This document shows, one piece after another, positions 15,917 to 19,338 of a DNA stretch of 27,821 bases. A model generated the notes under the pieces. It saw only the letters and a program-made list of their open reading frames with translations, had not been told where the DNA came from and ran no database searches. Each line of letters begins with the position of its first letter. Position 1 is the stretch's first letter. A program made the position numbers and the translations under genes. Origin of the DNA: a virus; IMG/VR virus record IMGVR_UViG_3300010233_000025, positions 18,950 to 46,770 of that record, one strand, 5' to 3'.

Positions 15917-16764
15917 TAACCGCAAAGATCATCGCAGACAGCATAGGTGAATATTCTCCAAGACTTACAACTCTGCAACTGCGCTATCCTCGTTTTATCC
16001 ACTCAGAATTCATGACCCATCGGGTACTTTCACGCAATTCATCATCCTCACGAGCTATCCCGGTAGATCGATTGATCGCAGATGTTGAAAATGACATGGT
16101 AACTCCGATAGTATGGTATAAAAACAAGCCTGGAATGCAAGGAACAGATTTTGTTTCGGATGATGATCGTGAAAAACTAAATGAAGTATGGAAAAATGCA
16201 TGTACAACAGCAATAGGACATGCACGCCAGTTAATTAGAATAGGAGCCCATAAACAACACATTAATCGCATCATCGAACCCTGGTGCCATATTAATACTA
16301 TAGTTACGGCAACTGAATGGTCCAACTTTTTTGCATTGCGTTGTCACCCAGACGCGCAACCTGAAATGTGTAAACTAGCTGGCGCAATATTTCGTGCAAT
16401 GGCCAATTCCGTTCCTCGTCTACTATATCACGGTGACTGGCATCTTCCTTTTCTGCAAAATATAGTCGCCGGACCGCTGGAACATGACGCTCCGGAAATA
16501 AAAGTATCTGTCGCTCGTTGCGCCCGAGTTTCGTATCTGACCCAAGAAGGCAAACCACCAAAAATAGAAGATGACTTGGCGCTATATGATCGCCTTGTTG
16601 GGTCGATTCCACTTCACGCTTCTCCTACCGAACATCAAGCCACTCCAGATATTTGGACTAAAAGTCCAAGTGGAGACATAGGATGGTTTGAACATCCTGA
16701 ACTACATGGGAACTTATCCGGTTATATACAATTCAGAAAGACGTTGCCGGGGGAATCCCAATGA
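15913..16764 (+). CDS. thyX: FAD-dependent thymidylate synthase (283 aa)
   Basis: Makes dTMP from dUMP using folate and FAD, supplying thymidine for phage DNA. The motif MTHRVLSRNSSSSRAIP is the phage form of the ThyX signature RHR-x7-8-S. Further family features are AHKQHINRIIEPW, WSNFFALRCHPDAQPEM and RVSYLTQEG with conserved Arg. The start is the GTG at 15913, with AAAGGAG 7 nt upstream and an overlap with the preceding small gene; an upstream ATG at 15874 lies in that gene. Base composition is visibly more A/T-rich than the flanking polymerase gene, which may mean separate acquisition. Its stop overlaps the clamp loader start as ATGA. Confidence 0.92.
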   Translation: MITAKIIADSIGEYSPRLTTLQLRYPRFIHSEFMTHRVLSRNSSSSRAIPVDRLIADVENDMVTPIVWYKNKPGMQGTDFVSDDDREKLNEVWKNACTTAIGHARQLIRIGAHKQHINRIIEPWCHINTIVTATEWSNFFALRCHPDAQPEMCKLAGAIFRAMANSVPRLLYHGDWHLPFLQNIVAGPLEHDAPEIKVSVARCARVSYLTQEGKPPKIEDDLALYDRLVGSIPLHASPTEHQATPDIWTKSPSGDIGWFEHPELHGNLSGYIQFRKTLPGESQ

Positions 16765-18755
16765 CAGATATACTAAATAATGCTTACCGCCCAACGAAAT
16801 GGGAGGATGTGCTTGGACAGGACGCTATAGTCAAATCCATACGGAAAGTACTAAAAAACAAACTATCAAGAGCATTTTTGCTGACTGGGCCATCAGGGAC
16901 AGGAAAGACTACGATAGCGCGCATTGCCGCAGCAGAATGTGGATGTGAAAAACAGAACATCATCGAAATCGCAGCCGCCATCTATACCGGCGTCGATGCC
17001 ATGCGCCAAGTCGTCATAGATTCCAGCTACGGCGGATTTGGCGCAACCGAAAACAAGGCGATCATAGTTGACGAGTGCTTCATTCATGGGACCATGGTCG
17101 ACACACCTAATGGGCCAATCCCAATTGAAAACTTACACACAGGAGACAAAGTTATCGGAGCACTCGGAATAGATACTATAAAACGAACTATTAAAAAGCA
17201 TGTCTCGTTAGCAAGGATTATCCAATTGCGTTTGGAAAACGGGCGTGATATATGGTGCTCCAAGGAACATCCATTTTTGACTGATAATGGATGGTGTGCT
17301 GCGGAGCATTTAGATGCCAAAAGGATATCCACGATTCAAAGTCACATATCATCACAAATGCTACATATGTGGGATTCCATTCACGAGCGACGCCATCGGG
17401 TCTCGTTACTGCAAAAATTGCTGCAAAAAATTCCTAGTACGAAAATGCATATGCTGTGGAAAAGAATTTCCTATAAAGTCTTTCGGTACACCAATAATAA
17501 CTTGCTCCAGAATTTGCGGCAACAAAGTAGGGGCAAACAAACGGCGTGGGCCACGGCCGGAATATTGGAAGAATGCAGTCAAAGAAGGCCAAATGAAAAG
17601 CAGGAGAGAGAAACCGGAACTTTGGAAAAAGTTAGCACAACAATTTTCAAGACGAATGACTTTACGCAACCCAATGCAGATGAAAGCTGCAAAAGAAAAG
17701 ATGATTGCTACCAAGGAGCGCAATGGAACCTTGCACAAATGGCATGGGACCAGAGGAGGGAATGGAACTGGGCCGACAAAAGCGCAAGCTTTGCTTCACT
17801 CATTAATTGGCGGGCGGATGGAATATCCCATCTCACCTGGGAAACCACGAAAGCCTGGATGGCCATCTTGCTACAAAGTCGATATTGGATTTCCAGGGCA
17901 CAAACTGGCGATCGAAATAGATGGGCAGGGGCACACAGGAATGAGAAAGAAAAAAGACGAACTGAAGGAAGATCGTTTGAGAAAATTAGGGTGGAAAACA
18001 ATCCGTTTTTCAAACGAACAGATAATGGACAAACCGAACACGGCCGCAAACTATGTAATGAGACTATTGAGTGCTATGACTTAGAAATAGAAAATCATCC
18101 GTCGTATTCAGTAGAAGGATTGATAGTCCATAATTGTGCTCGTTTGTCAAAAAATGCTTGGGATAGCATCCTGAAAGCTGTAGAAGAGCCGCCTCCACAC
18201 GTCTATTGGTTCTTTTGCACCACCGAAATCGACAAGGTGCCGAAGACGATCCGGACGCGTTGCGCGTCTTTCACATTGAAACCAGTTCCCGACGATGATA
18301 TTCGCGAAATACTCTATGATGTAGCCGACAAGGAAGATTTCCCAGTCAGCGATAGCGTCATTGACATGATCGTGCGGGAATCTCACGGTTCTCCTCGGCA
18401 GGCGTTAGTCTATCTCGCTGTCTGTTCCGACGTAAAGGATCGATCTGAAGCCGCCAAGCTCATGCAATCAGCGATCGATTCCGAACCTGTAATTGAGCTA
18501 TGCCGATTTCTTACCAAACCCGGATCTTGGCTTAAAGCCATGAAAATAGTTGAACGACTTGAGGATGAAAATCCGGAGAGTGTCAGGATTATAGTATGTA
18601 ACTACATGACCAAGGTGGCGATGAACGCAAAAAGCAACGACGCCGCCTGCGCCACGCTGAATATCCTCGATGCATTCTCGATTCCATTCAACCAAAGCGA
18701 TGGAATGGCGCCATTATTGACTGCGCTTGGTAAAGTAATGTTCACTCAGCAATGA
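16761..18755 (+). CDS. Clamp loader AAA+ ATPase with in-frame intein (664 aa precursor)
   Basis: Loads the sliding clamp onto primed DNA; DnaX/RFC/T4 gp44 class. The spliced product would be 311 residues (105 + 206), close to T4 gp44 (319). N-extein: YRPTKWEDVLGQD, Walker A GPSGTGKTT (43-51), Walker B IIVDE. The intein begins exactly after the catalytic Glu. C-extein continues CARLSKNAWDSILKAVEEPP, then FFCTTEIDKVPKTIRTRC with the sensor and arginine-finger motifs. Until the intein leaves, the ATPase site is split, so activity depends on splicing. No second subunit like gp62 is recognised. Start overlaps thyX (ATGA). Confidence 0.93.
   Translation: MTDILNNAYRPTKWEDVLGQDAIVKSIRKVLKNKLSRAFLLTGPSGTGKTTIARIAAAECGCEKQNIIEIAAAIYTGVDAMRQVVIDSSYGGFGATENKAIIVDECFIHGTMVDTPNGPIPIENLHTGDKVIGALGIDTIKRTIKKHVSLARIIQLRLENGRDIWCSKEHPFLTDNGWCAAEHLDAKRISTIQSHISSQMLHMWDSIHERRHRVSLLQKLLQKIPSTKMHMLWKRISYKVFRYTNNNLLQNLRQQSRGKQTAWATAGILEECSQRRPNEKQERETGTLEKVSTTIFKTNDFTQPNADESCKRKDDCYQGAQWNLAQMAWDQRREWNWADKSASFASLINWRADGISHLTWETTKAWMAILLQSRYWISRAQTGDRNRWAGAHRNEKEKRRTEGRSFEKIRVENNPFFKRTDNGQTEHGRKLCNETIECYDLEIENHPSYSVEGLIVHNCARLSKNAWDSILKAVEEPPPHVYWFFCTTEIDKVPKTIRTRCASFTLKPVPDDDIREILYDVADKEDFPVSDSVIDMIVRESHGSPRQALVYLAVCSDVKDRSEAAKLMQSAIDSEPVIELCRFLTKPGSWLKAMKIVERLEDENPESVRIIVCNYMTKVAMNAKSNDAACATLNILDAFSIPFNQSDGMAPLLTALGKVMFTQQ
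17303..17306 (+). promoter_or_regulatory. Internal ribosome binding site of the nested endonuclease
   Basis: GGAG lies 7 nt before the ATG at 17314, and in that frame a TAG (17311-17313) immediately precedes the ATG. The site sits within codons for block-B-adjacent residues of the intein. It makes independent translation of the endonuclease likely and fixes its start. Confidence 0.7.
17314..18084 (+). CDS. Homing endonuclease, Vsr/EDxHD-type, nested in +1 frame of the intein (256 aa)
   Basis: Predicted to cut the intein-less clamp loader allele so that the intein is copied into it. N-terminus: two zinc-finger-like Cys clusters, Cys16/19/33/36 and Cys45/48/64/68. Middle: residues about 99-140 with RNPMQMKAAKEKMIATKER, like the NUMOD3 DNA-binding motif of phage homing enzymes. 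C-terminus: a restriction-like core of the Vsr/DUF559/EDxHD kind, with D190, AIEIDGQGH (E201, D203, H207), a DELKEDRLRKLGWKTIRF helix-strand, and Glu235. The last codons overlap the coding of intein block F. This family is known from fractured split-intein loci; here it is out of frame inside one continuous intein gene. Confidence 0.88.
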   Translation: MPKGYPRFKVTYHHKCYICGIPFTSDAIGSRYCKNCCKKFLVRKCICCGKEFPIKSFGTPIITCSRICGNKVGANKRRGPRPEYWKNAVKEGQMKSRREKPELWKKLAQQFSRRMTLRNPMQMKAAKEKMIATKERNGTLHKWHGTRGGNGTGPTKAQALLHSLIGGRMEYPISPGKPRKPGWPSCYKVDIGFPGHKLAIEIDGQGHTGMRKKKDELKEDRLRKLGWKTIRFSNEQIMDKPNTAANYVMRLLSAMT

Positions 18756-18786
18756 TGTTCTATATGATGATTCCGAGGAGAACAAA

Positions 18787-19338
18787 ATGCCCCCACGGAA
18801 AGCGCCACAACTACAAAATCCGATAGGCAAGTTCAACGAAACTATTGCCGAGTTCGTCGAACGTCTGGAAGCCGCTTTGAAATTTGATAAGAACTGCCTA
18901 GACGACGCATTGGAGGAACAAGCCGGAATCTTCCATGAAATCGCTGATGAACTTGCAATTCAGATTTCACGACGCGATCAGGCCAAGAAACACGTAACGG
19001 ATCTCGAATCCGATATGGTTGTGAAAATCAAGACGTTTGCACGCGAGAAAGACCTTAAAATCACCGACAAGGAAGTCGAAGCACAAACGCAACTCGACGA
19101 AGATGTCATCAAGGCCAGCAAGGCGCTGGCAGAACTAAACTTGATAGTCGGCAGATTATCCGCACTCAAGGAGTCATACGTCCAACGTTCATATGCTTTG
19201 AAAGACCTGTCGGCGCTAGAAATTCATAATTATAGTGTTCAAGCACTTGAGGAAACACACGCCAAAGCACTCGACGAAGCGCGTTACCAGCGCGTCAAAA
19301 ACAACGACAAAAAGTTCCGTGAGGAGCGGCGCAAATGA
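18787..19338 (+). CDS. Helical coiled-coil protein, UvsY-like candidate (183 aa)
   Basis: Almost entirely helical. It has a 'D-K-N-x-L-D-D-A-L-x-x-Q' segment near residue 35, a charged middle (DLESDMVVKIKTFAREK) and a LSALKESYVQRSYALKDLSAL helix near residue 125. The order recalls helical phage proteins placed between replication and ssDNA-binding genes, of which T4 UvsY (a recombination mediator) is the best-known type. It precedes the ssDNA-binding protein and the RecA-like recombinase, which fits a mediator role, but residue-level similarity to UvsY is not demonstrated. Start by GAGGAG 6 nt upstream. Confidence 0.6.
   Translation: MPPRKAPQLQNPIGKFNETIAEFVERLEAALKFDKNCLDDALEEQAGIFHEIADELAIQISRRDQAKKHVTDLESDMVVKIKTFAREKDLKITDKEVEAQTQLDEDVIKASKALAELNLIVGRLSALKESYVQRSYALKDLSALEIHNYSVQALEETHAKALDEARYQRVKNNDKKFREERRK

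Follow-up and report, generated by a model that had tools for sequence, protein, structure and literature searches.

An endonuclease reading frame nested in the +1 register of an intact intein in a phage clamp loader gene and its relatives

A phage clamp loader gene was found to carry an intein with a complete 256-residue endonuclease frame nested inside it in the +1 register; the same layout was recovered in 95 loci. The arrangement is very probably that of a homing intein with the endonuclease overprinted on the coding sequence of the intein itself, one mRNA being read twice. The DNA analysed, here called the window, comprises 27,821 nt (positions 18,950 to 46,770 of IMG/VR record IMGVR_UViG_3300010233_000025). 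An earlier note on it had described an out-of-frame endonuclease inside an intact intein gene, and both frames were confirmed.

The interrupted host gene and its two reading frames

The host gene (16761-18755, + strand, as are all features given below) consists of 664 open codons followed by a stop; it was assigned by phrog_5846 (E 8e-65) and by Pfam DNA_pol3_delta2 and AAA as a clamp loader of the DnaX type, into whose Walker B motif (DE|C) an intein is inserted. The N-extein (16761-17075) ends in the Walker B sequence ...IIVDE, with the empty site seen in the related Edwardsiella phage ZHS, where the same gene is uninterrupted (IIDECHRLSKNAWD); the C-extein (18135-18755) begins with CARLSKNAW, as placed by the uninterrupted homologue, and the junctions read IIVDE|C...VHN|CARLSKNAW. 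Joined, the exteins would give a predicted clamp loader of 311 aa. The intein (17076-18134; 353 aa, 1,059 bp) runs from C1 to H352 and N353 and is followed by Cys+1. Its assignment rests on a Hint domain in the host frame (Pfam Hint_2 and Intein_splicing, Hint fold), on catalytic residues and on a conserved insertion site in a host that is otherwise intact: C1, H65, H352 and N353 were invariant (n=45 inteins), and C459, the +1 nucleophile, was nearly invariant among 52 host proteins. The two half-genes of a split intein were not found, a single frame being open throughout.

The N-terminal splicing half (blocks A-B, 17076-17345) was delimited by profile match and the C-terminal half (blocks F-G) lies at 18042-18134, its profile match spanning 18042-18146 and its first part being common to the 3′ end of the endonuclease. 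In the AlphaFold model of the intein, residues 1-80 and 331-353 had pLDDT values above 90. The linker between the halves (17349-17975) is predicted to be disordered (pLDDT mostly 37-65 over residues 92-300, about 45 for most of the shared part) and is overprinted by the endonuclease. Among solved structures, the gp41-1 intein (6qaz, E 8e-7) came closest to the splicing domain.

The endonuclease ORF (17314-18084, 256 aa plus stop) lies wholly within the intein, is +1 relative to it and is double-coding over its entire length. It was supported by Pfam in the +1 frame (DUF559, E 1.7e-9), profile match, stop avoidance and predicted fold. Two CxxC...CxxC zinc-finger-like motifs (17359-17517; C16-C36 and C45-C68) were recognized from sequence and conservation, C45 and C48 being invariant and C64 and C68 nearly so in 41 relatives. 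An EDxHD/Vsr-like nuclease domain (17863-18081; E201, D203, H207, D215) coincides with the DUF559 match, and in 41 sequences E201, H207 and D215 were invariant and D203 was kept in at least 90%. The AlphaFold model of the endonuclease had a pLDDT of 85.9, and its top Foldseek match was I-Bth0305I (3r3p; probability 1.00, TM 0.71 by target, with a modest E value of 2e-3).

Recurrence and openness of the intein frame

Single-protein searches of IMG/VR with the two proteins of the window gave no match; relatives were found with an alignment as query. When the endonuclease ORF was compared with phage records by tblastn, most matches lay in helicase genes, from phages of Vibrio, Pseudomonas and Corynebacterium; in the isolated-phage helicase records inspected, the endonuclease match was +1 to the annotated helicase in 7/7 and the separate endonuclease was unannotated in 7/7. 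Scanning IMG/VR and GTDB genomes with profiles yielded 146 loci, which were classified by the positions of the N and C splicing blocks and of the endonuclease, stops not being a criterion. Both blocks together with a +1 endonuclease were present in 95 loci (window and annotated records included), from phage and bacterial contigs. In each of the 95 the N and C blocks were in one frame with no stop between them, and in each the endonuclease was in the +1 frame, not in frame with the intein as in the canonical arrangement. Clustering at <90% identity left 80 distinct loci; an assembly error joining the frames was excluded, since the layout recurs in 79 distinct loci besides the window. A search that started from the splicing domain, with a query itself built from nested elements and with some contigs common to the first set, found, among its best 80 matches, 57 with a nested +1 endonuclease, the intein frame being open in 57/57.

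Hosts were mostly SF2 helicases and clamp loaders (ResIII match in 36/52, DNA_pol3_delta2 in 8/52), the insertion site was DE|C in nearly all of them, and the distribution of the element among relatives was patchy. Similarity among endonucleases was correlated with similarity among splicing domains (Mantel r 0.62, 0/2,000 permutations), which fits joint inheritance or joint movement. Four relatives of the endonuclease were in frame with their intein (L111, L112, L114, L155). The view that known inteins carry the endonuclease in frame holds within the present endonuclease family for these four only. The four come from Thaumarchaeota and a Bacteroidota contig, and the stop-avoidance signature is absent from them. 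Five further relatives were free-standing (L072, L099, L102, L104, L105); in L072 and L099 the copy is directly 5′ of a helicase gene, which in L099 is uninterrupted at its DESHH site. Two inteins of 170 and 200 aa (L080 and L110) contain shortened, still out-of-frame endonuclease remnants, possibly a route to mini-inteins.

In the +1 register, a stop in the intein frame arises only if T is the last base of an endonuclease codon and the next codon begins with AA, AG or GA. At such risk junctions T was found 0 times in 3,242, compared with 2,792 in 8,553 (33%) at other junctions of the same 80 loci. Over their 15,765 codons there were 0 stops in the intein frame and 1,246 in the third frame; since the 80 loci are related, these counts are not independent events. 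As controls, junctions of the same type carried T at 320/1,628 in other genes of the window phage, at 95/266 (36%) in free-standing relatives and at 115/203 in in-frame relatives. For the window, the exact probability of an open intein frame given the endonuclease protein was 1.2e-7 with synonymous codons at phage usage and 3.8e-7 with the codon usage of the endonuclease gene itself. The open intein frame is maintained by selection, as the earlier note had proposed on the cruder estimate (61/64)^257, and the stop avoidance for which it proposed to test relatives was found across the 80 loci; host-frame stops in the overlap were sought in these loci and none was seen. The frame could be open for some reason besides splicing. 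The +1 register is permissive because a stop needs T at the wobble position of an endonuclease codon, and a synonymous codon without it is always available. For 75/80 endonucleases, no choice of codons in the other sense register would be free of stops, which may help explain why all sense-strand cases are +1; shared ancestry would be an alternative explanation.

The earlier note had seen in this layout the missing intermediate on the way to split inteins. Fractured split inteins (gp41-1, for example) accompanied by free-standing endonucleases were reportedly described by Dassa et al. in 2009, and the window resembles them in having a separate endonuclease gene between splicing halves and a splicing domain for which gp41-1 is structurally the closest; a single frameshift or stop within the double-coded part would suffice to split the gene. 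However, the halves of the window form one continuous frame, all 80 distinct loci keep that frame open with none split, and an endonuclease of the nested family was present in 0/50 loci retrieved with gp41-1, of which the one inspected in detail (L156) has a different, by eye GIY-YIG-looking ORF between its halves. A short-lived stage between a continuous intein and a fractured one with a free-standing endonuclease is thus very improbable. In the split gp41-1 loci (L156-L205), IntN was mostly exactly 88 codons long and IntC was found 597-1,963 nt downstream.

Start signals, conservation and proposed mechanism

A start signal of the endonuclease's own, also claimed previously, was borne out in the window: a Shine-Dalgarno-like GGAG (17303-17306) lies 7 nt 5′ of the ATG, and a TAG in the endonuclease frame (17311-17313) adjoins it. 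Across loci, with nested start codons picked by eye and SD score, SD matches of at least 5 nt preceded 47% of starts against 15% expected, an SD of at least 4 nt was absent in 24/80 loci, and in 42/80 the 30 nt before the start so picked contained an in-frame stop. These data bear on a programmed +1 frameshift near 17310 that would yield a fusion of N-extein, intein N-terminal part and endonuclease. In most loci the N splicing block is directly followed by the start of the endonuclease, as such a frameshift would have it, but the adjoining or nearby upstream stops and the enriched SD-like sites fit internal initiation better, and a frameshift is very improbable.

In 37 overlapping, hence not independent, pairs of related loci the endonuclease was conserved above the intein-frame linker in 37/37, and the N splicing block likewise in 37/37. 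Differences fell at positions 1, 2 and 3 of the endonuclease codons in the numbers 1,771, 1,390 and 3,339 and were thus concentrated at position 3. Such a wobble bias, the confident fold and the invariance of catalytic and zinc residues across the family speak against the +1 ORF being a relic in decay from which protein is no longer produced, a reading for which the shortened remnants in a few loci (L080, L110) could be cited and which has only a slight chance of being right. The reading of the insertion as an ORF-bearing intron of group I or II, its open host frame coincidental, can be set aside almost entirely: endonuclease ORFs in other frames are common in phage introns, but the host frame of the window gene holds a complete Hint domain whose splicing residues are invariant, openness is selected and no Rfam match was obtained in 16700-18800.

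The hydropathy of the linker did not differ from that of stop-free synonymous nulls; selection holds the intein frame open, most linker residues being free. The double-coded share of the intein was 69% (median). In 74/80 loci the endonuclease stop lay within the match to the C-terminal splicing block, so that a short stretch encodes two conserved elements. The distance from the endonuclease stop to the end of the intein took few values in the 80 loci, mostly 8, 11, 20, 23, 44, 50 and 65 nt, as if the stop were seated in particular conserved codons of blocks F and G.

For an overprinted homing intein, we infer the following course. Ribosomes starting at 16761 would produce a 664-aa precursor, from which the intein would excise itself (C1, block-B His, HN and Cys+1) to leave the 311-aa clamp loader. 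Ribosomes starting at the internal GGAG-ATG (17303-17316) would make the zinc-finger EDxHD endonuclease of 256 aa as a separate protein. This enzyme would cut intein-free alleles of related phages near the Walker B codons (DE|C), and repair would copy the entire 1,059-bp element with both frames together. Selection would keep the endonuclease protein and an open, otherwise mostly free intein frame, the overprinted part of which would be made as a flexible linker and lost when the intein is removed.

Other overprinted nucleases, known systems and meaning

A second type of nuclease was observed in the same layout: in a terminase intein (L286:3778-4587), an HNH-like zinc-finger endonuclease, called HNH by eye and with weak Pfam support for a nuclease, occupies the +1 frame. 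T was found at 0/44 risk junctions there, with 0 stops in the intein frame vs 6 in the third frame. Endonuclease-like antisense ORFs were seen inside open inteins in L279, L262, L277/L287, L268 and L273, and L289-L292 were found from L277. The antisense ORF of L279 (3744-4622) encodes a 293-aa EDxHD-like protein, opposite an intein open for 417 codons in DNA of 33% GC. In the exactly opposed register, Leu codons TTA and CTA and Ser codon TCA would stop the intein; all three were absent among 14 Leu and 17 Ser codons of L279, where 7.5 stops were expected under uniform synonymous use, and were unused in L279, L268, L277, L289 and L291. For exactly opposed codons a null built from a gene's own codons is circular, and only the uniform synonymous null therefore counts. 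An antisense family (L277:414-1301, L268:501-1337, L273, L289, L291) is exactly codon-opposed to open inteins and recurs at 44-49% identity. In L262 (2299-3120, antisense), a zinc-finger HNH/NUMOD3-type ORF lies in an open intein in a different register, with 8.7 intein stops expected under the own-codon null and 0 seen. On balance, an overprinted endonuclease seems to be a general further state of inteins beside the in-frame, split and endonuclease-free states: stable, widespread in phages, and of several origins that differ in register and in the family of the nuclease (EDxHD and HNH in +1; EDxHD-like and HNH-like in antisense).

With canonical inteins the window shares a Hint domain and an endonuclease between blocks B and F, whereas its endonuclease is in the +1 frame and would, to judge from the sequence, be a separate protein. 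Related intein layouts may be described in a work of Gosselin et al. 2025, to judge from its title ('Actinobacteriophage Inteins ... Non-Canonical Architecture'; bioRxiv 10.1101/2025.01.02.630785, cited in PMC11855218). Searches of the open literature found no description of an intact intein overprinted by an endonuclease, that preprint lying outside the comparison, and the novelty of the layout is probable, not certain. The EDxHD homing endonuclease I-Bth0305I (PMC3943268; PDB 3r3p) is part of a group I intron system rather than of an intein; the window enzyme is predicted to share its Vsr-like catalytic fold, with conserved acidic and His residues, but is intein-borne and has N-terminal zinc fingers. 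The nearest published case found is that of ShiLan, where an out-of-frame HNH ORF with no detectable ribosome-binding site lies in an insertion in a methylase; no splicing domain was found in that insertion, and it is predicted to be retained in the protein (PMC11855218). The likeness is a shifted-frame endonuclease ORF inside an insertion open in the host frame; in the window, by contrast, a splicing domain is present in that frame, a complete Hint domain flanking an EDxHD enzyme with an SD-like site.

The loci form a large collection of double-coding genes, each nested entirely within another, in which the reason for both frames is clear. Annotation of intein-bearing genes needs to change, the layout being currently missed. 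They offer a natural test bed for the evolution of overlapping genes, in which one frame keeps a protein and the other mainly its openness, and each locus would allow a direct test of whether one phage mRNA yields both products. A selfish element can in this way hold on to a linked mobility gene that is not a domain of the spliced protein.
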